Below are positions 1 through 18,074 of a stretch of 25,805 nt of DNA, one piece after another (positions within the stretch are counted from its first letter, which is position 1; each line of letters begins with the position of its first letter). This DNA comes from a virus, in IMG/VR virus record IMGVR_UViG_3300023210_000188, positions 1-25,805 of that record; one strand, given 5' to 3'. Below the pieces are notes generated by a model. That model ran no database searches. It was not told where the DNA came from and saw nothing but the letters and a program-made list of their open reading frames with translations. A program made the position numbers and the translations under genes.

Positions 1-236
1 CCTGACTGATCTGTAACAAGACCAGACAAGTCAGCAAATGTATCAGATAAGTCTGTGATACCTTCGTAAGGATTTATAATATCAGGACGCTGGTTTTTAA
101 CAGTTTCCATTTCACCTTTAAGTTTTTTTTCTCTATCTCTAGCTCTTTTGGCCTGCTTTTCAGCGTATGCTATTTGCATACCAGCGGTAACGACTTGTGC
201 CCCTGCTTGCGCGTAAGAACCTCCTCCATCTGCCAT
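1..236 (-). CDS. Possible internal virion protein, N-terminal part only
   Basis: The gene starts with ATG at 236 and runs off the left edge, leaving about 78 codons. The visible part begins MADGGGSYAQAGAQVV, a Gly/Ala-rich stretch. A strongly charged helix-forming segment follows (about residues 25-45, rich in Lys, Arg and Glu), then an NPYEGITDLS motif at about residues 55-64. From memory, a similar opening (charged helix, then INPYxGxTDLS) occurs in marine phage proteins near the end of the structural block, thought to be internal or ejected virion proteins. That assignment is from recall, not a search. It is the last gene of the visible structural block, 12 bp after the GNAT-like gene, a plausible place for an internal core protein. 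The leader before the ATG is A/T only. Confidence 0.6.
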   Translation of the reverse strand, partial: MADGGGSYAQAGAQVVTAGMQIAYAEKQAKRARDREKKLKGEMETVKNQRPDIINPYEGITDLSDTFADLSGLVTDQS

Positions 237-248
237 AATTATTTTTTT

Positions 249-635
249 TTAATTTACAACCTTAAAGTAATGATCAACTTTAACATCACCTTTTTTCCAA
301 CCGCAATTGCTTAAAGCGGTTCTTATTCTGTTAGTATCAGTTGTTGTTAAGAGTATTAAGACACCCAACTGTTTAACATATTTTTCTATAGTTTTGTACA
401 GTAACTCTAAGCCAACTCTGCTTCTTTTAACTTTTTTATTAGAGTGTGCAAAAACAGTTAAAGCCGCTTGATCAGCAACAAACACTCCAACACAGTAAGT
501 ATCATTACCGTTTTCATTTAAAACGAAAATATCGTAAGGATAAAATTCTTTTGCTGGAACTTGAAAGTCATGTTCTTTAGACCAATTAACTATTGTTGGA
601 TAAAATTCGTGTATATTTTTTATTTTTATTTCCAT
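249..635 (-). CDS. GNAT-like acyltransferase-fold protein
   Basis: This 128-residue protein probably has the acyl-CoA N-acyltransferase (GNAT) fold. The pattern is a helix-rich N-terminus, then a hydrophobic strand with aromatic residues (about residues 47-60, TYCVGVFVADQAALTVF). Next come a basic turn and helix (KKVKRSRVGLELLYKTIEKYV, about 67-88), a strand LGVLILLTTTD, and a late helix NRIRTALSNCGWKKG with a final strand YFKVVN. The strand-helix-strand order and the GW near the C-terminus match the end of small GNAT proteins. A clear Q/RxxGxG/A acetyl-CoA loop is not obvious, so activity is uncertain. The gene lies 5 bp after the 491-residue tail protein. Phages often carry such small GNAT-like proteins among structural genes with unknown substrates. 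Product family is inferred; being a real gene is well supported by spacing. Confidence 0.55.
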   Translation of the reverse strand: MEIKIKNIHEFYPTIVNWSKEHDFQVPAKEFYPYDIFVLNENGNDTYCVGVFVADQAALTVFAHSNKKVKRSRVGLELLYKTIEKYVKQLGVLILLTTTDTNRIRTALSNCGWKKGDVKVDHYFKVVN

Positions 636-640
636 TTAAT

Positions 641-2116
641 TTAATAGTTTGACCCTACAAACTCTGATGAAACAGCAAACAGCTCTTTCATTTTACCGAA
701 GTCCGTGCTACCGTCTACAGACATTTTAACTGTAGCAAAATAACCTTTTATACCTGTAATAGCACCACCAAAAGATATTTCACCAGGCGCTGGCTGTGAA
801 TTGTTTACTAAGTTAGCAACATATCTATTTTCTTGACGATCAAAACCAGCGTGATATATAGGTGGAATTAATTGTCCTGGATAAACCCTGCCAAGTGAAT
901 CGTAAGCTCCTTCATTATAACTATATATGGACTGAGTTGTATCGTTAGTCTCTATGGTATCATAGTTTTCTGGCTGACCATAGCTTGGTATACCTTTGCC
1001 AGTTGGGTCAGACGTAAAGCTTTCAACTTGCCAACCGTTAGACCCTTCATAAGATATTGTTTTAAAATTCTTTTGTATACTAGGGTTTGGATTAAATATA
1101 AACGTTATGCTAGGGTTTTGATATTCACCGTAAAATGTAGCTCTATTAGTAGTTACATCGCTAGCATTGTGCATGTATACACCTTTATTTATATTAACTT
1201 GATTGCCAGAGTTACTTATAAAGCTGACGTCTTTAGGTACTGTATAAAAAGAACCTTTAATGCTAAACATGGAAACTGGTTTATAAGAATAAAAACTAGT
1301 CCAACCTCTTACCTCTTCGTCATACGAAATTGTTTTAAACTTATTACTTTCTGCCGGCTGTAAAGATAAAACATATTGTTTAGTATAATTATCCCAACCA
1401 CCGTAAACCTTACCAGTTGACTGTACAGTATCTAAACTAGTTAATTGATCTCTAAAAAAGTCTTTCATGCCGTAAGCTGATATCTCTGTAAGACCATCTT
1501 GAGACAAGCGCATTACAGCGTTTCTATCTTTATCTGTAAAGTATTTTCTATAACCAAATGCAGCGAAGCTTTCTGGGTTTCTACTTATACCATAGTTACC
1601 AGCGTAAGGTACAATTTGGCCTATAACTAAATTAGTAGATGTAACTGAACCTTGACCTTCAGCTGAATATATAGCGTCTTTATCTATAAGAGCTCTATTA
1701 ACTTTGCTTTCTTGAAATACAATTAAGTTAGTATCTTCAGCATATAGCTTTTGTATACTACCATTAGCGGGATCTACTGCTTTTGTTATATCCTCACCTA
1801 CACTAAATACATTTGTTTTATTAATACCTGTTCTAGAGTTAAATATACCAGAGTATATGAGCGCATTTATTCTCTTAGAAGAGTTTGGTTCTTCTTCTAT
1901 TAAATAAGCTTTAGCTCCAAAACTAACCGATGTATTGTTGTAACCACCTTTTATTCTAGCTTCTTCAACAAACCACTCTTTGTTATTATTAACAGCGCCT
2001 GATTGAGGGTAAGTATTATCACCTCTTGATCCATTCCAAACAGGATTACCATCACCATCCGTAGTCTTCCTAAGAACAAAGGAGTTAAAATATTTTACTT
2101 CAATTATAGCTGCCAT
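641..2116 (-). CDS. Tail structural protein, likely beta-propeller or fibre-like
   Basis: A 491-residue protein, Asn/Ser/Tyr/Gly rich and almost entirely beta in character, with no Cys clusters and no membrane segments. Repeated short blocks of alternating hydrophobic residues (for example KTISYDEEVRGWTSFYSYK near residue 260-280 and again KTISYEGSNGWQVESF near 355-370) look like related blades or strands. The FKTISY motif occurs twice. It begins MAAIIEVKYFNSFVLRK, directly after the giant nozzle-like gene, with a 29 bp gap holding an AT-rich leader. By position and composition it is probably a tail nozzle, stabilisation or receptor-contact protein. No catalytic motif was seen. It could instead be the C-terminal half of a split nozzle protein, since in related short-tailed phages one protein carries the full propeller. 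Confidence 0.6.
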   Translation of the reverse strand: MAAIIEVKYFNSFVLRKTTDGDGNPVWNGSRGDNTYPQSGAVNNNKEWFVEEARIKGGYNNTSVSFGAKAYLIEEEPNSSKRINALIYSGIFNSRTGINKTNVFSVGEDITKAVDPANGSIQKLYAEDTNLIVFQESKVNRALIDKDAIYSAEGQGSVTSTNLVIGQIVPYAGNYGISRNPESFAAFGYRKYFTDKDRNAVMRLSQDGLTEISAYGMKDFFRDQLTSLDTVQSTGKVYGGWDNYTKQYVLSLQPAESNKFKTISYDEEVRGWTSFYSYKPVSMFSIKGSFYTVPKDVSFISNSGNQVNINKGVYMHNASDVTTNRATFYGEYQNPSITFIFNPNPSIQKNFKTISYEGSNGWQVESFTSDPTGKGIPSYGQPENYDTIETNDTTQSIYSYNEGAYDSLGRVYPGQLIPPIYHAGFDRQENRYVANLVNNSQPAPGEISFGGAITGIKGYFATVKMSVDGSTDFGKMKELFAVSSEFVGSNY

Positions 2117-2145
2117 ATTTTATTATCACTTGTTATGTCTATATA

Positions 2146-5100
2146 TTACAATTCAAAAATAGTAGAAGTTGCAAAAACCATCGTTCCATTACTTTTAGCA
2201 GTATATCTTTGCACTAGTGAATAAGAGTATATTTGCCCAGCTGGAACAGTTAAAAACCCTTTTGTTCCCCACTCATCAATAGGTATAATTTGACCATTAA
2301 CTTCTACCTCAATATTTTCAGGTTCGTAGTTAGGAACATAAGTTTGATTGGAACTATATTGTGTTTCTGTACCCATCTTGTTTGTACATTTTAGGCATCC
2401 TCCAAACCCTACTGTTGTCGTACATTCGCCGTCACTTGGCGTAGGCCATTTATTAGATCTTATAATTATTCTACCTACACTTTCTACGCTTAATATAGTT
2501 TCAGCTACATCTTGAGCCCCAAGCGTGCATAAATAACCTGTAGTGCTTCCATACGAGCCTGGTATAGGACCACCCTCACTGCCTTTGTTTATAGAAACAC
2601 CTATCTTTATTGGTGCGTTAATATTTTGACCAGCTGTTACTTGCAAAGTTCCGGTTATTTCTTTTTCAAATGTATTGCTATTTGTAGACAAACTTTCGCT
2701 TGTTTTAATAATTTTACCATTACCATATACAATTTCTCTAGACTGAATACTAGAATCTTTACTAACAAAATCGCTAGGCTTAGAAGTTCCTTTTACTTTT
2801 TTACCGCTTTTAAATTCAGCTATCCATCTTCTATCGTCGTCAGTATCTCTTGGGCTTATTATTATTTCTTCACCTCTGCCGTGAGCGTGCGAGTTGTCAG
2901 ATCTATTGTAGCCAAAAGTTAAATCAAGAGTTTGGGATGGCATCCAATTTGTAGCTTCAGTGTCTATTTTACCTACAACTGGACTTCCAAGAGGTGAAAA
3001 AGATCTATAACCTGTAAAGTTTAAAAGTTTAGTACATTTTTCGTCTTCGTAAAATCTAGTAACATATTTACAATGCCACTCTCTAGCGTAAACCTCTTTA
3101 ACAGGATCGTCGTAAGAAGCTTCCAAAGCAGATTGCCAATTTATATCACCTATTTTATACGCGTATGATATAGGGTTTTGTAAATCAAAAGCACCTGAAT
3201 TTTCCATACAAGCTCTATCTATACCTACAGGGTTATAAAAATCTCCATAAGATAGATATACACCAGGAACTCTATACTTTGAGGCAACTGGATTTTTAAT
3301 TTTTTCATTACAATTAGTTGGTGTTGGAGTTAATAAGCCAGAAGTATTATTACCACAATCTGTATTTGATGAAACTGGTGATGGAAAAGTACCAAACGGA
3401 TATCTAATTAACAATCTATAGTCACCATATTTTGGATCACCAAAGTAAATTTGATCTTTACCAACAACAAACGTAGTTACTTTTTCAGAAGCAGGTTGTC
3501 CTTTTAGAAAAATACCTTCAGGATCTACGGCGTTAGTAAATAAATCTCTATCGCTGTCAGCTTTCCATAGTTGAAAGTTAACTTGTGATATGTTTTGAGG
3601 AGGTATAACCGAAGCCACAGCATCACCAATTGTTAAAGTTGAATTATCTTTATTTAATATAACGCCAGTGCCGTTATAAGTATCACTAAATGTTAGTCTA
3701 GGTTGTACGCTGGCTTGTTGCGTGCCTCCAAATAAACACTCATTACCCTCTATATCTATTGCTGTAACCCAATTGTTCGGATAATCTGGCGACTCTGTAT
3801 CTCTGTACTGTAAAACAATAGGAACTCCTAACTTAGCAATAGAGTCACTGCTAAAGCCTTGATTGCAATAATAGTTTTTGTAACCACCTACGATAGATTT
3901 AAGATAATCAAATTGACTAGAAGAATGGCGAACTTGTACAAACATACTACCTTCTTTCAAGTTGGTAGTTTGAAAATCATTTGGATTTGGATTAGTTGTT
4001 TGAGTGTATTGGTCACCTGGGATTGGACCTATATAAGGTTGATCAAAAGCTGGCATCCAAAAAAAATCGCTCGCATTGCCAAAATAACCAGTGCTTATAT
4101 TAGATTTACTTGTAAAATTAGCATTAGAAAAAGTATAAGCCGAACACTCAGTATTAACCATGTTTTGAAAAACAACGTCTCCATCAGCGCTTATTGTTGC
4201 TGGTAGAGAATTTAATATACCTGCTGATCTATCAAAAGGTTCATTGTTTTGTGCGTTTGATGGATCTGATACCCAAAAATAACCAGCACTTTGTTGGTTT
4301 TTTGTAATAAAAACACCCTCACCTAAAGATTTACCTAAAAAAATTGTTCCAAGATTTGCAACTGACTCGCCTGATATATTGTTAGTACACCAAACGTCAT
4401 CATTAACTTTTTGGTAATTTGGTACTCCATCGCCGTCAGTTAATACATCGGCTATTATCTGCACGTTATGCGTTGCTTGACCACCAGCGTCTTTTAATAC
4501 AACTGTTAAATTAAATGTACCTCCAACATCATCTGTCGTGGTAAATAAAATACCAGTATCAGCTCCTATAGAAAAGTTATTGTTAGTATCACCTTGAATA
4601 GACCACTCTAAACCTACTTGCTTAGCGCCATCGACATTACTTATAGTTCCATTAACACCTTTAAATTCATATATAGATTGTTCAGATACATTTATATTAA
4701 AAGTTGTTGGAAGTTCTGTATTTGGATCCCCATCGCTAGCTAATATAGTAGGATTTACATTTCTTAATCTATTGTTAGGTTGAACAAAATCAGTGTTAGC
4801 ATCAGGTGAAGCCACGGAGCTTAAGTTAAAAACAAACTCGTAGTTATCTGTAGATGGTGAAGTTGAAGAATAAACAAATTCTTTTTTAGTTTTAATATGA
4901 TAACTATCGTACGCTAATGTACCGCCTCCTGGTATAGCTTGATTTTTATCAACTTTAACTAAATCAAACTTATCCTTAACACTTTCATCTTGAGGATTAA
5001 AAACATTCCAACTGTTTAGTATAGAATCGTTTATAGGTACAAAACCTGTAGCATCAGTAGTTTCAGGATAAAAGTTACCAGTAACAACGGTGCCTATAAC

Positions 5101-7527
5101 GTCATCTTCTCTTAAGTTAAAACTAAAGTTTTCTAAACCTATAGCTACATCGTTTTCAGAATTAGCTACTAAATAATTTAAATCATTTACTAAACCTGTT
5201 GTTGATGTTTCCCAGAATATTTCCAACCTTGAAACTACTGGATTTGTTTCTAGTACACCTAGAAAATAAGGGTATGTGTTTTGTTTTTTAGGATAACTAC
5301 CTAATATTGTAGAACTATAAGCCTCGCCTGCTTTTGATGTAGAAAGCCTTGCAACCAAAGGATTTGTGGTTGATTCGTATATATCCGCAAGAGGATCAAT
5401 AGGGCTACCACTATTATCTAAAAATATATCTCTATATTCAGCTAACGCAGGCACATCAGCGCCTTTGCTAGTAGGAAAAAACGGTTCATTAAAAGTAGGA
5501 TATACACCTGATCCGGTGGCATCGTAGTTAGGTGTAACTCTAGGAAATAAAGTTACTTCACTTCTAAATTGTTTTTGCTCGGGACCTATATCGGTTACAT
5601 CTTTAGGTACTTTGTTTATATTGTCTGATATTAAAGACACTGTTGATGTTGTGCCAATAGGATTGCCAGCGGTAGTAGCGGCGTTAGGATCTCCTTCTAT
5701 TATACCACCTGTATAAACATTATAGTACTCTTGCTCTGTTTGCTTTACAACTATTTTATAGCTATACCAACCTAGCGGGTTGTAATTAGCATCATCTGGA
5801 TTTCCGTTATAAATACCAGGCCAACCTGTTCTGTAGGAAGGATTAACAGGTCCTATTTGATCATTAAAAACCATTTTAATAGAATCACCAGCCCAGTCAG
5901 CGACTTTATCGTTATCATATCTATTTTTGTCAAAATAAGGGTGATATGTAGTAGACCCATAAAACTTACCTAAAACATCATCTGGTTGGTTTACAGAAGA
6001 CAATACTACTGTAGAAGACCTACCAAATCTATCTGACAAAACAACACCAACTTGGTAGTTTCTGTTTTGTTTTACAGTGTGCGTTGGATATTCTACAGAG
6101 CTAGTTCTATATCCACTTCTGTTTTTTGGAACACCGGCTTCAGATACAGATAAAGGATATTTATCTGAAACTGCTACATTGTAATTTAAATGTACAGGCG
6201 GTGTGTGCTTATCTTGAAAGTTTCCATATATAACTCTGTTACCAGAAACTTCTTGACTAAACGCTCTTACTGGGACTTTATCGTAAACTCTAATTAACTC
6301 TGCTTCTGGTAAAGTTTTATATGGTTTTCTACCTTGATACTTATAAGGATAAAACCACTGAAGCTCTGTTTGCTTTTCACCTCGGCTATTGTAAGATTCA
6401 GCAAGAACAGTAGAAAACATTTTAGAGTTTATTTCTTCTATTGTTATTGTATCTACAACTTGCACAGCAAGACCGTCAGACTCTTTGTATATAATATCTA
6501 ATTCTAAAACTTTTAAACCATTGAATTTAGCTACGTTATCTATATACTCTATTTGTTCAGACGGTAAAGGTATTAAAAGTTCTATTTCATTAGCTTTATT
6601 TTCCATAAAACTAACTGTGCTACTTCTATATGCATCTTGCTCGTCTGCTGAAGTAAATGGTATAGGATTAGAAGAACTGTCTTCAGCTGTACCTAAAAAA
6701 TAACCATCTTGCTCTGGTATAAATGCCTCCTGAGTAAATGGCGCCAACAGAGAATATTCACCGTCATTAAACTTAAAACGATAACTAAATCTTACAAATT
6801 TATCTTTTAAAAAATCAGGATCACCAGCGTAATTTTCGTCGTAATATGGATTATCAACCGTATTGTTTGGTAAATATTCGCTCGTGGCATCAATCATAGT
6901 GGTGCCAATTGCATTTATAATATCTTGATCTTTGTAAAGTTGTATAGCTTCGTATGGATTATATTTGGCTATTGATATATTGTCTTCGTTGGTATAATAA
7001 GTTGGTGATGTGTTTTGAGGGTCTGGGTTTGCGAGACTTATGTTTATTTTTCTAGGTTGATTTCTATTATCAGTAAAAAATAATAAATTTTCTAAAACAT
7101 TAACACCAATTATAGGATGCGTAGTTGAAAAATTTAAAAACGCACCTTCAACTAATTTAATTAAAGTATGTGTTGTTACATTAAAAGAATATATAAAGTT
7201 ACTAGCTGTAGGTTCGTATTTAAAATTAACTTTACTATCAGCAAAAACTTCATCTGTGTAGTCTGTTAAAAATAAAAACACTGTATCTGTAGATTTATCT
7301 ACATAATGACCTATTACTTTTATACTGTCTATACCTGTGATTGACTTTAAATCAACATTACCCAACAATATGTTACCTAATACATTCTCTAACGCTCCAA
7401 CGTCAGGCCCTTCTGATTTACTAACTTGTATGTTAAGTCCTTCTCTATATTCACCATTTGGTAATAACCTGGCATCCAGGTCCTGGTTCATTTTAGACTT
7501 AATAAAAGCGTTTGTAACTTTAGCCAT
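2146..7527 (-). CDS. Giant tail nozzle/stabilisation-like protein with cadherin-like insert
   Basis: At 1793 residues this is the largest protein of the window. It begins MAKVTNAFIKSKMNQDLDAR followed by LLPNGEYREGLNIQVSKSEG. That opening, then GALENVLGN and strands such as VFLFLTDYTD and LLFFTDNRNQPRKINIS, is the signature I associate with T7 gp12-like nozzle (tail tubular B) propellers in crAss-like and marine podoviruses. About residues 940-1030 look like a cadherin-type Ig domain (NNFSIGADTG, then FNLTVVLKDAGGQATHNVQI). A Cys-containing region lies near residues 1350-1700, ending in CTLGAQDV, GFGGCLKC and a beta-rich tail. Typical gp12 proteins are roughly 800 residues, so this one carries large extra domains, possibly for surface contact. 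It sits between the connector genes and another tail protein. The nozzle call is an inference from N-terminal resemblance and position. Confidence 0.7.
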   Translation of the reverse strand: MAKVTNAFIKSKMNQDLDARLLPNGEYREGLNIQVSKSEGPDVGALENVLGNILLGNVDLKSITGIDSIKVIGHYVDKSTDTVFLFLTDYTDEVFADSKVNFKYEPTASNFIYSFNVTTHTLIKLVEGAFLNFSTTHPIIGVNVLENLLFFTDNRNQPRKINISLANPDPQNTSPTYYTNEDNISIAKYNPYEAIQLYKDQDIINAIGTTMIDATSEYLPNNTVDNPYYDENYAGDPDFLKDKFVRFSYRFKFNDGEYSLLAPFTQEAFIPEQDGYFLGTAEDSSSNPIPFTSADEQDAYRSSTVSFMENKANEIELLIPLPSEQIEYIDNVAKFNGLKVLELDIIYKESDGLAVQVVDTITIEEINSKMFSTVLAESYNSRGEKQTELQWFYPYKYQGRKPYKTLPEAELIRVYDKVPVRAFSQEVSGNRVIYGNFQDKHTPPVHLNYNVAVSDKYPLSVSEAGVPKNRSGYRTSSVEYPTHTVKQNRNYQVGVVLSDRFGRSSTVVLSSVNQPDDVLGKFYGSTTYHPYFDKNRYDNDKVADWAGDSIKMVFNDQIGPVNPSYRTGWPGIYNGNPDDANYNPLGWYSYKIVVKQTEQEYYNVYTGGIIEGDPNAATTAGNPIGTTSTVSLISDNINKVPKDVTDIGPEQKQFRSEVTLFPRVTPNYDATGSGVYPTFNEPFFPTSKGADVPALAEYRDIFLDNSGSPIDPLADIYESTTNPLVARLSTSKAGEAYSSTILGSYPKKQNTYPYFLGVLETNPVVSRLEIFWETSTTGLVNDLNYLVANSENDVAIGLENFSFNLREDDVIGTVVTGNFYPETTDATGFVPINDSILNSWNVFNPQDESVKDKFDLVKVDKNQAIPGGGTLAYDSYHIKTKKEFVYSSTSPSTDNYEFVFNLSSVASPDANTDFVQPNNRLRNVNPTILASDGDPNTELPTTFNINVSEQSIYEFKGVNGTISNVDGAKQVGLEWSIQGDTNNNFSIGADTGILFTTTDDVGGTFNLTVVLKDAGGQATHNVQIIADVLTDGDGVPNYQKVNDDVWCTNNISGESVANLGTIFLGKSLGEGVFITKNQQSAGYFWVSDPSNAQNNEPFDRSAGILNSLPATISADGDVVFQNMVNTECSAYTFSNANFTSKSNISTGYFGNASDFFWMPAFDQPYIGPIPGDQYTQTTNPNPNDFQTTNLKEGSMFVQVRHSSSQFDYLKSIVGGYKNYYCNQGFSSDSIAKLGVPIVLQYRDTESPDYPNNWVTAIDIEGNECLFGGTQQASVQPRLTFSDTYNGTGVILNKDNSTLTIGDAVASVIPPQNISQVNFQLWKADSDRDLFTNAVDPEGIFLKGQPASEKVTTFVVGKDQIYFGDPKYGDYRLLIRYPFGTFPSPVSSNTDCGNNTSGLLTPTPTNCNEKIKNPVASKYRVPGVYLSYGDFYNPVGIDRACMENSGAFDLQNPISYAYKIGDINWQSALEASYDDPVKEVYAREWHCKYVTRFYEDEKCTKLLNFTGYRSFSPLGSPVVGKIDTEATNWMPSQTLDLTFGYNRSDNSHAHGRGEEIIISPRDTDDDRRWIAEFKSGKKVKGTSKPSDFVSKDSSIQSREIVYGNGKIIKTSESLSTNSNTFEKEITGTLQVTAGQNINAPIKIGVSINKGSEGGPIPGSYGSTTGYLCTLGAQDVAETILSVESVGRIIIRSNKWPTPSDGECTTTVGFGGCLKCTNKMGTETQYSSNQTYVPNYEPENIEVEVNGQIIPIDEWGTKGFLTVPAGQIYSYSLVQRYTAKSNGTMVFATSTIFEL

Positions 7528-7533
7528 TTAATT

Positions 7534-8766
7534 TTAGTGTTTAATCCATTTAGACTTACCTCTAAAAGTGTTTATAATTTCAGTAGGTTTAATGTTTGAT
7601 AGTCGTATTTTAGTGTTTCTTATTTTAGCGCTTTTCTCTTTCTTTAAACGCTGCACTATATACTCTGGTTGATTAATTTTGCTAGCTATAATAGCATGTA
7701 ATATGTACGCATACACAGCTTCTTCGGCTAACTTAGGTACTTTCATATCATGATCGTAAGCCAAACCGTCAGATATATACTCTAACATTATTAAGCTATC
7801 AACTAAGTTGTTTGAAAAAGATATCTTACCGTTTTTATAATCCATTAAATAGTAACCGTTTATATTAGCAAGTTCAGTATCTAATCCATACTGCTGACCT
7901 TGCAAGCCCCAACCTTGAGGCCAGTCACCATTTTGATAACCTAATCCAACCCAGTAATCGTATAATTCTTTTCTATTTTTTAAATCGTTGTTGTCCCAAC
8001 GCTTGTTTATTTGAGATGTGCCATTTAAATTTTCACCTTGATTGTCCTGAATAGGTATACCAGCACCATCTTGAATAGGCACGTCATAAGCCCTACCGCT
8101 TAGTTCAGTAGGATATATAGGATGTTTAACACCTTGACTATCTATTCTTGACAAGCTAACTAAGTTAACATAATCTTGTGGTATAGGTATACTTAAACTA
8201 ATAGGTACACTAAGCTCTTGAGAGTTAATAGCTTTTAACGTATCATAGCTTAATTCTTGTAAAGCGCGTTTAGCGTGAAATATAACGTCTGTTCTTTTAA
8301 CGCTCGGTATAAGTTTACCATCGCCAACGTAAGCTAACTGAAAGTTATTTATTATATCAGATATTTTTATATAAGAATAACTATTGTAATTGTTTTCTAC
8401 TGTGTCACCATAAGCGTCTTCATTACCATACTTGCCACCTGATTGAGACTTTAACTGTACAGTTAGATATGTACCAGCGTTTAATGTAGAGCCAATGTCA
8501 CTTGATATAGTTATAGTGTTATCAGACAGCGTATAAGGAATCCAGTTATCAGACTCTGGTGTAAACTCTATCCAACTTCCTGGCGCTCCAGTTGAACTAG
8601 TGTATATTTTAAAGTTGTTTAACGGGTAATCTACAGCTGAAGGGTCGTAATTAACAAGTTTCATGTCAGTATTAAAGCCAAAATTAAATTGGCTTTGACT
8701 AGCTTGAACTATTACAGTCTGCGCTCCTGCGTAATATTGTTGATTAGTTTCGGTTATTAAAGACAT
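7534..8766 (-). CDS. Head-tail connector or tail tubular A-like protein
   Basis: A 410-residue protein with two parts. An N-terminal beta domain (about residues 10-115; VIVQASQSQFNFGFN, then WIPYTLSDNTITISSD) resembles the small beta module seen at the start of T7 gp11-type proteins. A helical adaptor-like region follows: a helix with YIKISDIINNFQLAYVGDG, then SVKRTDVIFHAKRALQELSY at about 158-177 and PIPQDYVNLVSLSRID. The C-terminus returns to helices (KLAEEAVYAYILHAIIASK) and a very basic tail. Helix, PxDYVxxxxL strand, then C-terminal helix matches the adaptor/gatekeeper folds that sit under the portal. It lies between a second adaptor-type gene and the nozzle-like gene, with gaps of 3 and 6 bp. 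The precise ring in the neck cannot be assigned from sequence alone. Confidence 0.65.
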   Translation of the reverse strand: MSLITETNQQYYAGAQTVIVQASQSQFNFGFNTDMKLVNYDPSAVDYPLNNFKIYTSSTGAPGSWIEFTPESDNWIPYTLSDNTITISSDIGSTLNAGTYLTVQLKSQSGGKYGNEDAYGDTVENNYNSYSYIKISDIINNFQLAYVGDGKLIPSVKRTDVIFHAKRALQELSYDTLKAINSQELSVPISLSIPIPQDYVNLVSLSRIDSQGVKHPIYPTELSGRAYDVPIQDGAGIPIQDNQGENLNGTSQINKRWDNNDLKNRKELYDYWVGLGYQNGDWPQGWGLQGQQYGLDTELANINGYYLMDYKNGKISFSNNLVDSLIMLEYISDGLAYDHDMKVPKLAEEAVYAYILHAIIASKINQPEYIVQRLKKEKSAKIRNTKIRLSNIKPTEIINTFRGKSKWIKH

Positions 8767-8769
8767 TTA

Positions 8770-9537
8770 TTAACTTTTTTCATTTACTTCTTCAGCTTGT
8801 ATTTTAGCTGCAGCTGTTTGAACTATTTGAGGATCACGTATAACTATACCGGCGTATAGTAATATTTTTATAATTAAATCAGTCTGTTCTGACGGATGTA
8901 ACTCGAAGTCTTGAGATCCGCCAGTTTCACTATATAGCGTTTTATCGTACATGTATTGACCTTTTTTACCTACTTTAAAACCCCAATGTACATTTCTAGG
9001 TGTCCTAATAAAGTCTACAGAAATATCTGAAGTTATGCTTTTAGGTTCTATCATTATCTTGTTACTTTCTAACAAATAAACAGGGAAATATTCGGAAGGT
9101 TTTGTGAGATTAGATTTTTTAATAAAGTAAAAATCTGTTTTATCTAATCGCTGAGCTTCTACTTCGTGTTTGTACACAACGTTACTAATCATGTATATAG
9201 AAGACTCAGTAGGTTTAGTTTGCACAGGTACGTATTGTACACCAAAAGTATCACTAACAGGCAAATAAAAACACTTGTTGTTTGAATCATAAAAGCAAGA
9301 GCCATTTGTTTTAAATATAGACATTTTGTTGTCTATATTTTCTACTCTGTTACCGTAGTCTGTATTTGTTTGCGGCACACGTAACTGCTGGTTTAAGTCT
9401 TCAAAATACTTTTCAAATATTTCAAGTTGAACCTGTGTACTTATACTATTAAATTCAGTGGGTGTCATGTACCCGCGCTGTTCTTTATTTAGTATAAGTA
9501 AAACAGTTTGATATACTGTGTTTACGTTTATTGCCAT
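8770..9537 (-). CDS. Adaptor/neck structural protein
   Basis: I place the start at ATG 9537 (MAINVNTVYQTVLLILNKEQ), giving 255 residues. A longer frame opens at 9594, but its extra 19 codons translate straight through a perfect GC-rich hairpin. Starting at 9537 leaves a normal AT-rich leader. The protein begins with a helix, then YMTPTEFNSISTQVQLEIFE, a pattern common at the start of phage neck proteins of marine phages. A long beta middle follows (FYLPVSDTFGVQYVP, then FPVYLLESNKIMIEP). The C-terminal helices FELHPSEQTDLIIKILLYAG and QIVQTAAAKIQAEE resemble the core helices of head-tail adaptors. It precedes the 410-residue connector by 3 bp. Function is inferred from order and pattern; a head-completion protein is the main alternative. 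Confidence 0.6.
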   Translation of the reverse strand: MAINVNTVYQTVLLILNKEQRGYMTPTEFNSISTQVQLEIFEKYFEDLNQQLRVPQTNTDYGNRVENIDNKMSIFKTNGSCFYDSNNKCFYLPVSDTFGVQYVPVQTKPTESSIYMISNVVYKHEVEAQRLDKTDFYFIKKSNLTKPSEYFPVYLLESNKIMIEPKSITSDISVDFIRTPRNVHWGFKVGKKGQYMYDKTLYSETGGSQDFELHPSEQTDLIIKILLYAGIVIRDPQIVQTAAAKIQAEEVNEKS

Positions 9538-9560
9538 TTGTATTTTTTTATTACAATAAA

Positions 9561-9580
9561 GAGGCGGCGCAAACCGCCTC
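9561..9580 (-). terminator. GC-rich hairpin before the adaptor gene
   Basis: GAGGCGG (9561-9567) pairs perfectly with CCGCCTC (9574-9580) around a 6-base loop. In the minus-strand RNA the stem is followed by UUUAUUGUAAUAAAAAAA, a weak U tract. It lies 17 bp after the stop of the 256-residue gene and 23 bp before the ATG at 9537. It may be a partial terminator, an RNA-processing or stability hairpin, or may tune the next gene's translation. Confidence 0.55.
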
Positions 9581-9597
9581 AATATTATTATCACATG

Positions 9598-10368
9598 TTA
9601 TAGAAGTTTTTTCTCGATTGATTTGTATACCTCTACGCCTTCGTCTGTCTTCAAAAAAGAAGCAAACGCGCTGTAAGGATTTTCATCAAAAGGAACAATC
9701 ATTAGCTTCTTATCGTTCGAAGCCCAATGAAAACTTTTTTGATCTGCAGCTAAATAAATTACATTAGCTTCAGTTGCTTTAATAGCGAAGTTTCTTAGCT
9801 CTACATTTTCATCATTTGCTAGTGTCAAGAACAGTGTAGAGTTCTTTTTAGCAAACAATAGTAAGTCTCTTTTTATTTCTTTTGAACTCATAGAAGAAAC
9901 TTTTGATCCAACCTCAACTCTTAATATAGCTTCAGCGTGATCTACATCCAGTGATCTAGCTAAATTTAAAGCTTCAATTTGGTACTCAAGATCCTCTAGC
10001 TCATCTGTTGCAACCTCTACTTTATCAAACTCATAATATATACCACCTTTTCTTGGATGGTATAGTGATAGTAGTTTTTGTAGATTTTGTTTTTCTTTAG
10101 AAACAAATAACACACCATCTTTAAATATAACATGGCCAAGAGTAGCTTCGCCTTTTTGCTCATCTACAAATGGACTGTTCATATTAGTAGCATATCTAAG
10201 TTCTCTTTGCTCACCTTTTTCTTCGTCAAACCACAATAGTGGAAATCTACGCGAGTGTCTAGATTGTATAGTATATGTTATTGGTTGTTTATTTCCTTTT
10301 AAGATATATGTTCTATCTTTCATTTCCCAGCTTTTTTCAACTGAGGGTTTTTCTTTTGTTTTTGCCAT
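9598..10368 (-). CDS. Unknown protein after the capsid gene, possible virion component
   Basis: I do not recognise this 256-residue protein firmly. It starts MAKTKEKPSVEKSWEMKDRT with a basic tail. A beta region follows (TYILKGNKQPITYTIQ, then RRFPLLWFDEEKGEQRELRY), ending in GHVIFKDGVLFVSKEKQNLQ at about residues 78-97. After that come acidic and hydrophobic helices (DELEDLEYQIEALNLARSLD), then KEIKRDLLLFAKKNSTLFL and a charged C-terminus. The half-beta, half-helical layout without catalytic motifs suits a structural or auxiliary protein. It sits between the major capsid gene and the neck genes, and is flanked on both sides by strong hairpins, so it may be expressed as a separate mRNA unit. 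A head decoration or head-closure role is possible but unproven. Confidence 0.5.
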   Translation of the reverse strand: MAKTKEKPSVEKSWEMKDRTYILKGNKQPITYTIQSRHSRRFPLLWFDEEKGEQRELRYATNMNSPFVDEQKGEATLGHVIFKDGVLFVSKEKQNLQKLLSLYHPRKGGIYYEFDKVEVATDELEDLEYQIEALNLARSLDVDHAEAILRVEVGSKVSSMSSKEIKRDLLLFAKKNSTLFLTLANDENVELRNFAIKATEANVIYLAADQKSFHWASNDKKLMIVPFDENPYSAFASFLKTDEGVEVYKSIEKKLL

Positions 10369-10448: not shown

Positions 10449-11900
10449 TTACGCAGAAGCTGTAAACAACACGAAGTTGTTTGCACCTTGTGTAACCAAA
10501 CATCTTTCTGAAAGGAAGTGTACTTGCATTGCGTCAAGCGCAGAAGTGTAAGCACCACCTACAGAACCAGTAATCCAAGACTTCATGCGTCTGTCATCAG
10601 CTTGTGAAGCACGATAACGCACGTGAAGGAATGGACGACGTATGTTAGTTCCAAGAATCTGATCGTAAACAGTTGATGTACCAGCAGGAATAAGAACTCC
10701 TTCAATACCAGAAACTGCAGTGGCGCCACGAGTAGAAGCGTCATTTAAGTATTTCCAGTCAGTTTTGTAGAAGTCATATGAACCTCTGCGGAAACCGCTG
10801 AACCCAAGGTTCAATGCCATTTCTTCAGAGTTTTCAAATAGTCCGTAAGCTGTACCACCCTCAGAACCATTAGACACGCCACCTAGCATATCATCGATTT
10901 CTAGAGCTAATCCTCGGTTTACAAATAGCATATTTTCTTCAATAGCTCCTTGAGTATCAAGGTTTTTCAAAATGCTATCAAAGTCTGTTAGACTACCGTT
11001 TGCTCCACTAAAGTTATTAATCTTGTTTCCACGATCTCCAACAGCAGCGAAAAGTCCTTCAGTACCTTTATATCCTACAGTTCCGGCTCCAAGCGTGGAT
11101 GTTCCACTTACTTTTTCGCCTTCAACTAAAGACATTTCTAAGTAATCTTCAAAACGTAAACGAGTTTCAGACTCAGCTTTTAGATACCATAGAAATCCAG
11201 ATGTACCATCTTCAGTAGCAACTTCAACCCAACCAATCTGAGCTGTGTCAGATCCATTGATTTGAAATTTATCTTTGATGATAATAGGTGAGTTTGAGTA
11301 CTGAGTAAAAGAAGGAGTGATTGAACGCTCGCGCCCATCAGCTGTACCTTTCTTAAATTCAGAACCGTATACAAAAATCTTAAGATCTGTTTGACCTGTA
11401 AGATCTACTTCTGTAACACCACCACTACCGTGAAGGTCAACCTGAGTATAAGGTTTCACTGTTAGTGTAGCTAGCGTAGCAGACGTATCAGCACTAATTT
11501 CAACAAAACATTTTAGTTCTGCTCCACTAGAAGGATCCATTACTACGATAGTGTCATTTGCAGAAACAACGTTGGAAACAAAATCTTTTCCTGCCGCTGC
11601 ATCAAGTGCAAATGTTAGTGTAGTAGCTGAAGCACAAGTAACACTGTTGTAAGCAACGTGCAAGCGATTCTGTTCGCTCCAAATTACTTGATCAGATGTC
11701 ATTGGCATTTCAGCTCCTACCATACGTAAAAAGCCAGATAGAGTACGGTTTCCGTATCGCTCTACTTCAGCTTCATAAATTTCGGGTAGATACTGTTGAG
11801 CAAAATCATTAGTTCCGTCGTTGAAACTTAGATAGTTGGTCTCTAGTACCTGTTGTTTTTGACTCGGCTTAATTGCGCCGAAAGTTGGGTTAACTGCCAT
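10449..11900 (-). CDS. Major capsid protein
   Basis: A 483-residue protein with a typical HK97-type major capsid length for marine and crAss-like podoviruses. It opens MAVNPTFGAIKPSQKQQVLE, followed by a conserved-looking block with YLPEIYEAEVERYGNR (about 37-52) and FLRMVGAEMPMTSDQVIWSE. A beta insert covers about 85-180. The strong motif GSDTAQIGWVEV lies near 216-227, followed by TSGFLWYLKAESETRLRFED, a spine-helix-like segment. The C-terminal third includes WITGSVGGAYTSALDAMQVH. The family is recalled from uncultured marine phage capsids and not searched here. It lies after portal and scaffold-like genes, the classic order. By eye its GC content is visibly higher than its neighbours', as expected for a very highly expressed gene. 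It is the most likely client of the encoded chaperonin (inference). Confidence 0.88.
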   Translation of the reverse strand: MAVNPTFGAIKPSQKQQVLETNYLSFNDGTNDFAQQYLPEIYEAEVERYGNRTLSGFLRMVGAEMPMTSDQVIWSEQNRLHVAYNSVTCASATTLTFALDAAAGKDFVSNVVSANDTIVVMDPSSGAELKCFVEISADTSATLATLTVKPYTQVDLHGSGGVTEVDLTGQTDLKIFVYGSEFKKGTADGRERSITPSFTQYSNSPIIIKDKFQINGSDTAQIGWVEVATEDGTSGFLWYLKAESETRLRFEDYLEMSLVEGEKVSGTSTLGAGTVGYKGTEGLFAAVGDRGNKINNFSGANGSLTDFDSILKNLDTQGAIEENMLFVNRGLALEIDDMLGGVSNGSEGGTAYGLFENSEEMALNLGFSGFRRGSYDFYKTDWKYLNDASTRGATAVSGIEGVLIPAGTSTVYDQILGTNIRRPFLHVRYRASQADDRRMKSWITGSVGGAYTSALDAMQVHFLSERCLVTQGANNFVLFTASA

Positions 11901-13166: not shown

Positions 13167-15575
13167 TTACCTTGGCTCAAACTGTTCTAAACCAAAACCA
13201 CCTAAAGAATCATTACCAGCTGACTCAAAGTTCTTTGGTAATTCATCGTTTTGGCGCTGCGATATCATTTCAGACTGTTGAGTACCTATAATTCTAGCAC
13301 GTTCGTCTTTACGATTTTCTATTTCTTTTTCTTTTTGTTTTTCAATATCAGCTCTGGCTTGAGCTAGCTGCATATTGTATTCAAACTCTTGAGCCATTAA
13401 TTGCTTTTTAATTAAAGCTTCTTGCTCCATTTTCTTTATTTCAAACTCAGTTTTAGCTTGCTCTATTTGTACTTTTGTTTGAGCCATAGCTTGATCTTTT
13501 TGTACTTCAGCCATAGCAGCTTTCTCTGTAGCAGCTGCATTGGCCTGAGCTTGAGCTTGTATGTTTGCTTGTTGAGCAGCTTGAGCTTCTTCAGCTTTTA
13601 CTTTTTGTCTAAACTTAAGGTATTGATTAGCTAGTTTAATATTTTTTATTTCTCTAATATCAATAGCATCTTCTAAACCTATTTGTCCAGATTGCAAAGC
13701 TACTTGAATATTTTGCTCTAGCTTTTGCTGCTCTTCTTCGTCTGGTTCTAGTTCTAAGAATATACCAAACTCATGTATACTTAGCTTATCAATTTCTTCT
13801 AGCGTAGCTATGTTAAATTGATTTATACTACCCATTAAAGCTTCTTTGGTTAACGGAAAACTTAAAGCATCTGCAGCTCGTAAGCTTATATTTTCTGCAG
13901 CTCTAACTGTTAAATACATTAACGACTGCAATACGTGCTTTGTAGCTGTGTTAGAGTTAGCAGCAGCAAGTTTCTGTAAACCAACTAAAGCGTTTTTATC
14001 TGGTTGGCTACCATCACGAGCTTCGTTTAATCCAGTTACATCACGTATCATTTGTAAGTAGTATTGATACGTTTGTATTAAAGACTGTATTTTAGCCATA
14101 CCGCTAGAAGTCTGCAACTCTTGTATTGGCACTTGACCTCTATTAGGATCGCCATCTTGAGTCATAGATCTACCTACAATACTACCAGTTTGGAAGTACA
14201 TGTTTAAAGCTTCTTGTGGGTTGTATGTAGTTCCATTACCTAGATCAACTTCAGATAAACCATCAACGTCAACATAAACACCGTCTGGCACCATGCGGGA
14301 CATTACCTGTTGCAACTTTAAATGTGTAAGCTGAATCATGTCTGCAAAACCAGTAATACGATTTACTAAAGAATCAATGCGACCTTTATACATACGTGGC
14401 GCTGATATAGCATAGTTCATATTAACCTTAGTAACATCACCGTAAGGTCTTGACATATTTTCAGATAACCTCCAGTCGAGCATTGAGTTCATACCTAGGA
14501 CTTTAGCGCCTGCGTATAAAACCTCTATACTTCTTGAGACTCTTTCAAAGTTATCGTTTGGTGGAGGGTTAAATGTGTCAGGTTTTTCTAATACTTTTTC
14601 TAAACCTTGATCAGTCTTTTTTATTTTAAATACTTGATCGTGATACGTCTTGTATTCAAAGAATAATATTTGAACCTGATCTCTTTGATCTTGGCCCCAC
14701 CAATTTGAAGTATAATTACTACTGCCTGGGTATTTTTGTATTTCTTCTAGTTGCTCGTCGTCTAAATAAGGAAACAAACGTTTCACCTCAGACAAACTCA
14801 TACTTTTAACTTCACCAACGTAATATATGTCTTCAAAGTTAGGATCTTCTGTATAAGAATAAACAAGAGAGGCAGGGTCCACGTGATCAACGGTGATACC
14901 TTCAGATAAATTAAAGCTAGTTTTTACAGCACCTATACCTAATACAGTAAGATCGTAAGCAACTCGCTTTTTAACTTCGCTATATTTGTTGTAATCTAAT
15001 ACATTAGATATTAACTCCTCTTCTGCTATCTCTACACTTTGTTTATAATTTAACTGCATGTATAGATCTAATTCATTTTGATCTTTAGGTAGACTAGCAG
15101 GGTCTGGACTAGCGTAAAAGTTTTTACCAAGCGCGGCATTTAGGGTTTCAATGGTGTTTTTGTTTTCCATATCTCTAACAGCTGCCATAGCAAAATCTGT
15201 TCTTTGTTTTATAGAGTATGGATCTTGTGCAAAAGATTTTAATTCATAACCTTTATCAGTCATACCGTTAACTACAATATCTACAAACTTAGATAGTATA
15301 GGCACTGGCTTCCAGTCAAGATTTAAATAAGACAAATCGCCATTTATAGCCAACTCGTCTTTGTATTTTTGTATAGACTGTTCACCTCTAGCGTATAATT
15401 TTAATCTGTTAAAATTTTGAAAGTTAGCTGTAAACCTTTCTAGTCCACCTCTATTGCTTCTAAACCATTCATTTTCAACAGCGTTACCGACTTGTAGCCC
15501 ATAGTCATAAGAACTCTTAACCTCTTCAGGTACCACCTGATCTGGAAATGAACTATTGTAGTTAGTATAAACCAT
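13167..15575 (-). CDS. Portal protein
   Basis: An 802-residue protein directly after the large terminase (4 bp gap), in the canonical portal position. The N-terminal part contains KLYARGEQSIQKYKDEL (about 59-75) and LSYLNLDWKPVPILSKFVDI (about 81-100), then VVNGMTDKGYE. I associate this set with portals of crAss-like and uncultured marine phages. The central region has KKRVAYDLTVLGIGAVKTSF and the VDHVDPASLVYSY strand-turn typical of portal wing domains. The region near 500-530 (QTYQYYLQMIRDVTGLNEARDG) is the likely stem/crown helix, as MRDVTGxxE-type motifs are common in portals. Residues about 655-760 are a long Gln/Ala/Glu coiled coil (AEEAQAAQQANIQAQAQANA), presumably the barrel/crown. 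It forms the dodecameric DNA channel and terminase dock. The start ATG follows an A/T leader, CATAAATAAATG. Confidence 0.88.
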   Translation of the reverse strand: MVYTNYNSSFPDQVVPEEVKSSYDYGLQVGNAVENEWFRSNRGGLERFTANFQNFNRLKLYARGEQSIQKYKDELAINGDLSYLNLDWKPVPILSKFVDIVVNGMTDKGYELKSFAQDPYSIKQRTDFAMAAVRDMENKNTIETLNAALGKNFYASPDPASLPKDQNELDLYMQLNYKQSVEIAEEELISNVLDYNKYSEVKKRVAYDLTVLGIGAVKTSFNLSEGITVDHVDPASLVYSYTEDPNFEDIYYVGEVKSMSLSEVKRLFPYLDDEQLEEIQKYPGSSNYTSNWWGQDQRDQVQILFFEYKTYHDQVFKIKKTDQGLEKVLEKPDTFNPPPNDNFERVSRSIEVLYAGAKVLGMNSMLDWRLSENMSRPYGDVTKVNMNYAISAPRMYKGRIDSLVNRITGFADMIQLTHLKLQQVMSRMVPDGVYVDVDGLSEVDLGNGTTYNPQEALNMYFQTGSIVGRSMTQDGDPNRGQVPIQELQTSSGMAKIQSLIQTYQYYLQMIRDVTGLNEARDGSQPDKNALVGLQKLAAANSNTATKHVLQSLMYLTVRAAENISLRAADALSFPLTKEALMGSINQFNIATLEEIDKLSIHEFGIFLELEPDEEEQQKLEQNIQVALQSGQIGLEDAIDIREIKNIKLANQYLKFRQKVKAEEAQAAQQANIQAQAQANAAATEKAAMAEVQKDQAMAQTKVQIEQAKTEFEIKKMEQEALIKKQLMAQEFEYNMQLAQARADIEKQKEKEIENRKDERARIIGTQQSEMISQRQNDELPKNFESAGNDSLGGFGLEQFEPR

Positions 15576-15579
15576 TTAT

Positions 15580-17805
15580 TTATGTTATTATTTTTGAATT
15601 AATTCCTTGGTTGTCATATCTTTTGAAACCAAGAGGCACCACGTTTGTTTGTTTCTCAGCAACAGGTCTATATTTATTTCTGTTGCAAGCCATTATCGCT
15701 AAACCAGAGCTAATTGAAGCATCATGTTTAGTTCTACTATTTATATTAAACGTAGCCCAATCTTCTAACGTTTCTTGAAAGTACATATTACCGTATGAAT
15801 CATTTATAATACCTACGTGGTTTTCTATGTAATATTCTATAGCGGCAGCGTGAGCTTGTTTAATATCTTCACTTGAGTTAGGTATTCCACCTATTTCTTT
15901 TTCAGACGTTGATAGTTTGTGATAAACTTTATCAGGTCTGTTTATTGAAAACTGTCTATAACCTCTACGTTTTAAATAATATAGCAATCGAGGTTTATTG
16001 TTTTCCGCAAGTATAGGCATACCATAAAATACTAATGCCATTAAAACATCTTCAAAAAATATTTCAGCTGTTTGTGGTCTTGCTATATATTCTAAAAAAA
16101 ACATATTAGGCGGAGCATCTTCCATGCTAAACTTTGTTAATCCATGCAAAGATCCTTTAGAACCTTTACCATCAACAGTGCCTGATATATCGTAACTATC
16201 ACATCCAAAAGCACCTATGTGTTCATTACCTGGATATTTAACGTTATTTTTTAGTATAACTTTGTTTTGTAAATGTAACGGCGGTACCCATGACAATAAA
16301 AATCTACCGCTATTGTTTGGGGTAAACGTTACTATAGAATCTTTTATACCATTACTCCATTGAAAATTACCTTTAGTTAAAACGCCAGAGTATTTTAAAT
16401 CTTCATTGTAATCTATTTGTTCATATATCTTTGCTAGATTAAACAAAGACTCTTTCGCCTCGTCTCTGAACGCGTGTTTTTCTGTTCTCGGAAACTGACG
16501 ATAATATTCATTTAAAGAGTCTTGATCGTTCTTTAAACCTTCAACTTCGTTTTCCCAATACTCTATTACACCTACTTCAATTTCAGACCCGTCAATGCTT
16601 TTGATCGGGGCTTGGGGTGTTTCGAAAACAGGTAATCCATAAGTATCAATGTATCCTTCGTAGTTCCATTCCATAGGTATGAACAAACTATATAGTCCTG
16701 AGCTAGTCTGTCCATTGCGGTTTCTTTTGGTAACATCTGATTCATAATAAAGTTTTTTAAAGTTTTCACCGCCTTTATCTAATGCGTTTGATGTTGAACC
16801 CATCATACACTTACCTACGATTCTAGATCCTAATCTAAGTGTAGTTTTTGTTACGCGCCAGTTATTTAAAATGTTATCCGGACGCTCCCACTTACCTGAT
16901 TCATCGTGGGCAAGAAGCTTAAGTTTTTCACCGTCATATGAGTTGTCACCTGTGTTTTTCCAGTCAATTGTTGTATCAAGCCCTTCGAGCTCTTCCGTTT
17001 CAATACCCTGATCAAGTTTTTTTCTTGTAAGTTTTGAAGCCGGCACTCTGTACGCGAGTTCTGTTTTAGGACGGTCCATACCGTCTTGTATGGGTTTGAA
17101 AAAGAAGGGGTAATTAACTGATATTGGTACAACTTTGTCGGTAAACATTTTTTTCGCGTCCGCACCTGACTTTGATAATATTCCAAAACGTGCATCGGAA
17201 GATATAGTTGCTTGATTAACAAGCTCTCCTGATGCCATGAATGAAAAACCAGAGCGTCTGTTTTTGAGGTATGCCATTCCGTAACAACGTTTATCTGCTT
17301 TACACGCTTCCCAGAAGATAAAGAAAACCCTATTTGATTCTCTATAATCTGCGGCTCCAACGTCAATTTTACTCCACTGCAGGTACATGTAATGAGAACC
17401 AGTAACATAAGTAGGATTACCTTTGTTGTAAAACCAAAAACCTTTATCACGTCTTTCAAACTCTTGGTCGATAAAATCATACCATTGCTCTTTAAAATAT
17501 TCTGGCTTTTGATTAAATTCAAAAACACTTTTTATTTTATCTAAATCTTTGGGGTAATCAAGTCTTTGCCAGAACTGATCTTCTTTTTTGTTAGATCTTT
17601 TATAACTGTTTTCTGCATCAGGTAAAGCTATTTTAAGATTTTGTATTTCTATAACTTCACCTATTTTACCGGTTTTACTTATAACTACTACATCATGTTC
17701 TTTATTGTAGCCATAATCCCATTTTTTATACCTATTGTTTTTCTTTATTACGCTAGGTTTTATGTGGCCCGTTAATGTATTTACAAGCGTTTGTTGATAA
17801 CTCAT
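15580..17805 (-). CDS. terL: Terminase large subunit (packaging ATPase and nuclease)
   Basis: A 741-residue DNA-packaging motor. The ATPase half shows a variant Walker A at about 180-188 (LKNRRSGFSFM, with Phe where Lys is usual, and basic residues upstream). It has a clear Walker B LKLLAHDESG (D301, E302) and a coupling-type motif MMGSTSN (335-340). The nuclease half is RNase H-like: GAFGCDSYDISG (D536) gives the first metal ligand, ILAENNKP (E601) lies at the second site, and KHDASISSGLAIM (D695) gives the last acidic residue. These are the expected spacings. Its start overlaps the preceding small gene by 4 bp (ATGA), a coupling typical of small and large terminase pairs, and portal follows. 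It cuts concatemers and drives DNA into the prohead. Confidence 0.92.
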   Translation of the reverse strand: MSYQQTLVNTLTGHIKPSVIKKNNRYKKWDYGYNKEHDVVVISKTGKIGEVIEIQNLKIALPDAENSYKRSNKKEDQFWQRLDYPKDLDKIKSVFEFNQKPEYFKEQWYDFIDQEFERRDKGFWFYNKGNPTYVTGSHYMYLQWSKIDVGAADYRESNRVFFIFWEACKADKRCYGMAYLKNRRSGFSFMASGELVNQATISSDARFGILSKSGADAKKMFTDKVVPISVNYPFFFKPIQDGMDRPKTELAYRVPASKLTRKKLDQGIETEELEGLDTTIDWKNTGDNSYDGEKLKLLAHDESGKWERPDNILNNWRVTKTTLRLGSRIVGKCMMGSTSNALDKGGENFKKLYYESDVTKRNRNGQTSSGLYSLFIPMEWNYEGYIDTYGLPVFETPQAPIKSIDGSEIEVGVIEYWENEVEGLKNDQDSLNEYYRQFPRTEKHAFRDEAKESLFNLAKIYEQIDYNEDLKYSGVLTKGNFQWSNGIKDSIVTFTPNNSGRFLLSWVPPLHLQNKVILKNNVKYPGNEHIGAFGCDSYDISGTVDGKGSKGSLHGLTKFSMEDAPPNMFFLEYIARPQTAEIFFEDVLMALVFYGMPILAENNKPRLLYYLKRRGYRQFSINRPDKVYHKLSTSEKEIGGIPNSSEDIKQAHAAAIEYYIENHVGIINDSYGNMYFQETLEDWATFNINSRTKHDASISSGLAIMACNRNKYRPVAEKQTNVVPLGFKRYDNQGINSKIIT

Positions 17806-18074
17806 TTTGATCTACCTTCAGCAAAACCCTTGAACGACTTAGCTTTTGATTCTTTCTTGTTAGAGTCTAGCATAGATCTTTCTTCTTCTATCCTGTTTAA
17901 TATTTCAAACGCGTCAAATATAGCTAGCTTTTTAGTTGCAGCAGCGTTCTTTAAACGATCAGCAGTTATATCGTCACCAGAATCTACAATAGGTTCTTTA
18001 GCAACTTTTATTAATTCATCAACCGCTCTCTGTCCAGCTTGGATTATATTCTGTTTCGTTTCCTTGACGCTCAT
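17802..18074 (-). CDS. Candidate small terminase subunit
   Basis: A 90-residue, mainly helical, charged protein overlapping the large terminase by 4 bp (ATGA). It begins MSVKETKQNIIQAGQRAVDE, continues ADRLKNAAATKKLAIFDAFE (about 39-58) and ends in a basic tail, FKGFAEGRSK. Predicted helix-helix layout and position immediately before the large terminase suggest a DNA-recognition subunit or a packaging adaptor. It is shorter than most small terminases and I see no clear helix-turn-helix, so the assignment rests on context. Its first 56 bp lie inside the end of the tandem GroES-like gene, in another frame, implying translational coupling. An alternative is an unrelated structural helper conserved at this locus in marine phages. 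Confidence 0.5.
   Translation of the reverse strand: MSVKETKQNIIQAGQRAVDELIKVAKEPIVDSGDDITADRLKNAAATKKLAIFDAFEILNRIEEERSMLDSNKKESKAKSFKGFAEGRSK

Follow-up and report, generated by a model that had tools for sequence, protein, structure and literature searches.

A crassvirus-type tail muzzle encoded by two adjacent genes, with a cadherin-like pair at its tip

Gene content of the locus

The DNA analysed here, hereafter called the window, is a whole virus record of 25,805 bases. An open frame on the minus strand (7527..2146) encodes a protein of 1793 residues, designated MUZ-N. The original prediction of a frame of this length at 2146-7527 was confirmed, on the minus strand, and the ORF is real; the plus strand of the same interval, read in frame, contains many stops. 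The downstream neighbour (2116..641, minus strand), designated MUZ-C, encodes 491 aa and begins 29 bases past the MUZ-N stop. Upstream of MUZ-N, PHROG matches identified the terminase large subunit (15580-17805), the portal (13167-15575), and several products of virion-protein families, a gene set consistent with the order of head and tail genes in Calle_1 and elemoF.

The gene just upstream of MUZ-N (7534-8766, minus strand) encodes 410 aa, and its match to phrog_13977 begins at residue 124, so the product has an additional N-terminal stretch. The phage also carries a GroEL gene (23397-24950; phrog_5725, E 8e-131) and a GroES-like gene (18019-18624; phrog_13932, E 5e-20), both on the minus strand.

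Homology of the two genes to the crassvirus muzzle

Profile comparison revealed that MUZ-N is the N-terminal part and MUZ-C the C-terminal part of a crassvirus muzzle (gp44 of PhicrAss001), MUZ-N not being a complete nozzle. In a profile alignment with hhalign against gp44 and five fused (single-gene) relatives, MUZ-N 1-515 (5983..7527, minus strand) aligned with gp44 1-430 (E 2e-45), covering the ring-joining start, the first propeller blades, IG1, and the start of IG2. With the same panel, MUZ-C 96-365 aligned with gp44 1030-1285 (E 9e-40), within a segment (MUZ-C 96-491 plus stop; 641..1831, minus strand) that holds the C-terminal muzzle domain and would also contain the other propeller blades. 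A single family, phrog_14478 (1474 positions), spans both genes, with positions 3-184 on the start of MUZ-N and 920-1253 on MUZ-C. MUZ-C also matched Pfam crAss_MUZ_C (PF25729; 44.8 bits) and the end of the crAss_MUZ model (PF25731; 31.8 bits), both above the cut-off of 27. PF25731 gave no match on the N-part of the window, and among the N segments of the lineage it matched 5 of 43 at E ≤ 0.1 (best 8e-12). tblastn with each protein returned 87 phage records, from phages of Flavobacterium, Cellulophaga, Tenacibaculum, and Maribacter plus one uncultured phage. Searched singly against PDB sequences, neither MUZ-N nor MUZ-C had any match up to E 10, and searches with two profiles found no muzzle; one of them gave two weak KIAA0319-like/KIAA1837 matches, in the cadherin region, and the other none.

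The homology of both parts and the gene structure are strongly supported, and because two genes rather than one polypeptide are involved, the system is a split variant and not an ordinary member of the muzzle family. The 491-aa gene, missed in the original prediction, encodes the C-terminal part of the same protein. The long protein had been described as more than twice the usual size, which did not hold: gp44 is 1371 aa long, complete fused relatives (n = 44) span 1318-1910 aa, and the ORF encodes just a portion of the muzzle. The T7 gp12 nozzle, at about 794 aa, is much shorter.

The 1793-aa protein might instead form the end of the tail tube alone, the 491-aa product being a different tail protein; its N-part does include both ring-joining and IG regions, and its length would suffice for an independent protein. 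However, the 491-aa protein aligns with the very part of gp44 that the long protein lacks, the muzzle C-terminal domain was matched in 42 of 42 relatives of the 491-aa protein (crAss_MUZ_C, E ≤ 0.01), and residues 1034-1793 match no muzzle family. We consider such an oversized nozzle very unlikely, and regard it as highly probable that MUZ-N and MUZ-C together constitute one crassvirus-type tail muzzle made of two polypeptides. The two would very likely co-assemble, since in the alignment to gp44 each half covers only a portion of the propeller.

Structure prediction

The AlphaFold model of MUZ-N residues 1-1080, built with 43 sequences, was of middling quality (pLDDT 64.8, pTM 0.58), and most of the first 53 residues were below pLDDT 50. 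The first Foldseek match of the model was the gp44 muzzle (7qok_A, E 7e-7), with TM-scores of 0.21 and 0.17, so low that the match is not one of a single rigid body. VIA-align superposed model residues 63..784 on 7qol_P 66..934 (Z 11.9, 4.4 Å, 328 residues), leaving residues 1-62 uncovered; the match includes MUZ-N 516-785 (5173..5982, minus strand), which corresponds to the crass-type insertion region and the end of the gp44-like core. The nozzle-like peptide that had been quoted from the N-terminus corresponds to residues 9-28, and the alignment and the model bear out a nozzle-type N-terminus. Passages of PMC10172136 describe the ring-joining domain and propeller of gp44 as resembling the T7 nozzle; given the structural match to gp44, the predicted N-terminal fold is thus related to a propeller nozzle. 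The T7 nozzle itself was absent among the fold-search matches listed for the MUZ-N model. AlphaFold modelling of MUZ-C alone failed (pLDDT 42), so the assignment of its propeller blades comes from sequence comparison alone.

Position of the break

According to passages of PMC10172136, gp44 is built from a ring-joining domain and a seven-bladed propeller, with IG1 lying between blades 2 and 3 and IG2 inserted into blade 3, between 318 and 1021. The crass domain is inserted in IG2 at 453-904 and 940-1012, and muzzle length varies through insertions in just these IG/crass regions. The break between MUZ-N and MUZ-C lies in the IG2 loop region, at about gp44 905-1012 and placed within about 100 residues, which in gp44 is the outer tip of the tail. 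MUZ-C 96 aligned with gp44 1030, and MUZ-C residues near 86-91 (LIYSGI) aligned with LTYSGV of the elemo muzzle, placing the last IG2 strand most probably in MUZ-C, within the segment 1-95 (1832..2116, minus strand) that forms the start of the second chain. Since the break falls in IG2, two chains translated separately would have to come together to complete both this domain and the beta-propeller.

The exact break is blurred, because the start of MUZ-C and the end of the N-core both aligned with one segment of the elemo muzzle (about 974-1010); the end of the N-core was taken from locus L051 (residues 778-804), whose counterpart in the window is about 756-786. Either one of the two alignments is due to chance or the strand was duplicated at the break. 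A motif-based measure of IG2 loop length, which worked in 20 of 44 fused muzzles and 55 of 87 split N-parts, was not used as evidence.

Tip domains of MUZ-N

The gp44-like fold ends at about the start of the second IG2 insertion of gp44, and the cadherin-like pair follows at that place. Residues 790-1033 (4429..5160, minus strand) are modelled as a tandem pair of cadherin beta-sandwich folds. The second repeat (921..1033) superposed on cadherin-23 EC9 (7uqu_BBB) with Z 10.2 over 97 residues at 2.6 Å, and the whole of 790..1033 matched two-repeat cadherin chains with Z about 10, the rmsd for the pair being mostly 8-10 Å. The cadherin-like domain predicted near 940-1030 is thus present by fold match, at 921-1033, as one of two repeats. 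Pfam Cadherin on residues 961-1019 (E 0.031, 15.1 bits) fell under its cut-off of 28.8, which is why we use the term cadherin-like; among relatives it was found in 6 of 43 at E ≤ 0.1, the best at 3e-4. Two profiles of the cadherin region, built from 43 and 39 split-lineage sequences, matched 76 and 82 of the 87 split N-parts and none of the 44 complete fused muzzles, each at E up to 0.01; many of the split matches arise by construction, whereas the zero in fused muzzles does not.

Past the pair, the window has a further 760 residues (1034-1793 plus stop; 2146..4428, minus strand), a Cys-rich and fast-diverging tip extension that matched no Pfam or PHROG family. The predicted Cys-bearing C-terminal region proved sharper than claimed: all 13 cysteines of MUZ-N lie at 1047-1714, none at 1-1046, and none occurs in MUZ-C. 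The region past the pair is the fastest-diverging and the most length-variable. Compared with locus L007, the window showed 96% identity over residues 1-1033, 86 and 84% beyond, and 97% in the C-parts; compared with L008, identity along the N-part, from core to tip, was 64, 61, 37, 43, and 23%, with 70% in the C-part. Complete split N-parts ranged from 1036 to 1851 aa (n = 87), six being longer than that of the window, and the short N-part of L051 (1042 aa) ends right after the cadherin-like pair.

Such rapid divergence is the pattern expected of an exposed, host-facing region, and the extension may bind a receptor; its role is the least certain part of our reading. There is a real, somewhat less than even chance that the pair and the extension instead serve as structural spacers, lengthening the tail tip or bracing it. 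Cadherin-like and Ig-like repeats are often spacers, few split N-parts lack the pair, and Pfam and PHROG revealed no known binding domain; however, the part past the pair diverges fastest and varies most in length, a tendency of host-facing regions. The proposed fusion of a nozzle with surface-binding domains is thus partly upheld, by the cadherin-like insertion and the fast divergence past it, but not as an oversized one-chain nozzle, since the next gene would complete the propeller. Nor is the suggested recognition inside the tail tube protein supported: the position of the added domains corresponds to the IG2/crass loop region, on the outer tip of the tail.

The gene junction and its conserved element

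The junction of the two muzzle genes (2117..2145, minus strand) carries a conserved element, AACAAGTGATAAT. Across 88 loci, MUZ-C lay in frame 0, 2, or 1 relative to MUZ-N in 36, 28, and 24 cases, respectively, a random relation, and the intergenic gap was 1-62 bases in 83 loci and 390-871 bases in five. The first Met of the C-part was invariant (42/42), and stops separate the two genes. A single muzzle chain could in principle be produced by translational frameshifting, stop readthrough, or hopping, and the adjacency of the genes, with short gaps in most loci, and the conserved element at the junction would be compatible with this. However, the random frame relation, the intergenic stops, the invariant first Met, and the five loci with long intergenic stretches containing ORFs all argue against one chain, which we judge highly improbable, and for two separately translated chains.

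Four of the five long gaps (L229, L233, L261, L262) contain a small ORF with a KDIDI run; the one tested, from L261, gave a weak nucleotidyltransferase PHROG match (E 2.6e-4). In the fifth (L084:11145-12015), a 263-aa ORF had no PHROG or Pfam match.

The junction element, AAGTRATWAT, was found at most 45 bases before the MUZ-C start in 59 of 88 loci, whereas its frequency in the rest of these loci predicts 0.06. The exact motif occurs once in the window, at the muzzle junction; with one mismatch allowed it was not enriched in the window alone (18 observed vs 23.7 expected). A longer form occurred at 85 places in the 88 loci. The muzzle junction accounts for 58 of them, and another 21 separate the counterparts of the 256-aa gene and of the next gene (8770-9594); 4 fall within mapped genes (3 MUZ-N, 1 MUZ-C), and 2 are elsewhere. 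In fused loci it was found at 1 place in 51 loci. Our guess is that the junction element is a transcription or RNA processing signal.

In the window the conserved intergenic element AAYAWGTRAYWAT is present on the minus strand at 2120-2135 and 9585-9600; in the split lineage it marks two tail-gene junctions and occurs almost nowhere else. The copy at 9585-9600 precedes a G+C-rich hairpin followed by T-rich sequence. The gene 8770-9594 (minus strand) has an ATG at 9537, past the hairpin, where its family profile begins, and its listed GTG start is probably wrong.

Distribution and origin of the split

HMMs of both muzzle ends were applied to 269 sources (268 loci and the window) and classified 146 as split, 98 as fused, 22 as N only, and 3 as C only. 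Twenty of the 22 N-only loci are cut off by the contig edge, and the other 2 stop 53 and 122 bases short of the end of the locus. The 98 fused cases comprised 79, 9, and 4 from three locus searches, five annotated phages, and crAss001. The raw 146 split cases comprised 61, 78, and 4 lineage loci, the window, Maribacter phage Panino, and L144, so that the true lineage count is 144 with the window. Of the three sets that yielded the lineage loci, two came from searches that kept 80 loci each of more candidates, the split loci thus being samples, and the third set contained 4 bacterial MAG contigs, all split. Some contigs were fetched twice, and the 146 cases hold 114 distinct C sequences.

Among the 164 lineage loci fetched, all 143 with both parts visible (61 + 4 + 78) were split, which excludes an assembly error or a single broken gene. 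The other 21 comprised 19 N-only loci (17 running off the contig, 2 ending 53 and 122 bases short) and 2 C-only loci.

For a tree of the C region, rows with fewer than 300 residues of this region, rows at least 90% identical to a kept row, and C-only rows were dropped, reducing 225 rows to 140. All 88 split rows, the window included, fell on one side of a single branch (SH-aLRT 95), and one split/not-split change was needed, as against 42 in shuffles. This was a quick tree, and crAss001, phi13:2, and Gundel had very long branches that the program flagged. With one change and crAss001 outside, the split is a derived state that arose once. The locus in the window thus represents a crassvirus muzzle whose split is derived and conserved and whose tip carries a cadherin-like pair.

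Two apparent splits were rejected. Maribacter phage Panino (L006) has a frame change at 10817-10820, elsewhere in the gene, and was placed with fused muzzles in the tree; L144 is a fused-type gene with in-frame stops TAA and TGA at 7723 and 8482. The annotation of two muzzle proteins in Panino is due to this frame change in a fused-type gene, which is an error or a real frameshift.

Comparison with known systems and proposed mechanism

The split system resembles PhicrAss001 gp44 (PDB 7QOK, 7QOL; PF25731/PF25729) in its homologous N- and C-terminal parts, its C-terminal Pfam domain, and the structure match over residues 63-784, and differs from the single gp44 gene in having two genes and in adding a tandem of cadherin-like domains plus a Cys-rich extension to the loop region of IG2. 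Fused muzzles, namely those of Cellulophaga phages Calle_1/phi38:1 and phi13:2, Tenacibaculum phage Gundel_1, the Flavobacterium elemo phages, and Caudoviricetes sp. MW202828, are homologous over both parts at about 25-37% identity, but these are single chains of 1324-1613 aa, and fused muzzles lack matches to the cadherin-pair profiles (0/44 complete rows). The T7 gp12 nozzle is a single chain; as described in passages of PMC10172136, it shares, via gp44, the ring-joining and propeller domains but lacks IG and crass domains. No split muzzle was described in the matching passages of the one review retrieved on split muzzles of crAss-like phages, in a search of mainly open-access papers; papers listed on crAss-like phages, cadherin, and tails included none on a muzzle, judging by titles or abstract starts, and passages of PMC8776804 (Calle, Gundel) contained no 'muzzle', 'nozzle', or 'crAss'.

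In the arrangement that we propose, the N-terminus of MUZ-N would join the ring, followed by the first propeller blades, IG1, the greater part of IG2, and the crass-type insertion, and the chain would end in a long tip extension with the two cadherin-like domains and the Cys-rich, fast-evolving region. MUZ-C would contribute the last strand of IG2, the remaining propeller including the gate region, and the C-terminal domain. The chains would associate during assembly to give six N+C pairs plugging the tail end, and contact of the tip with a cell would open the gate; for the split muzzle, we infer the hexamer, the gating, and the host contact. With a free MUZ-N C-terminus, tip domains could grow and diversify without having to be threaded between the two halves of IG2. 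More tentatively, and with odds somewhat below even, the whole phage lineage may build its tail gate from two separately translated chains broken in the host-facing tip loop, the free end serving fast-evolving cadherin-like and Cys-rich modules and a conserved upstream signal of the second gene's own balancing the subunits.

In crAss-type virions the muzzle is believed to control DNA and cargo-protein release, and the fused relatives examined make it as a single polypeptide. The natural, conserved split reveals a site at which the gate protein can be opened, points to the tip loop as a site for adding possible host-facing modules, and gives access, through a naturally two-chain muzzle, to the movements of IG2 and the gate. 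In this phage group, muzzle length and completeness will be misjudged unless both genes are counted.

Hosts and additional observations

The titles of the four MAG contigs include Bacteroidetes and Flavobacteriaceae, which suggests that the hosts of the split lineage belong to that phylum. One contig was titled Ilumatobacteraceae and was probably misbinned. A 99.6-kb contig (IMGVR_UViG_3300046002_004363; L094 and L097) contains two different elemo-like fused muzzles and possibly represents two genomes joined in assembly.
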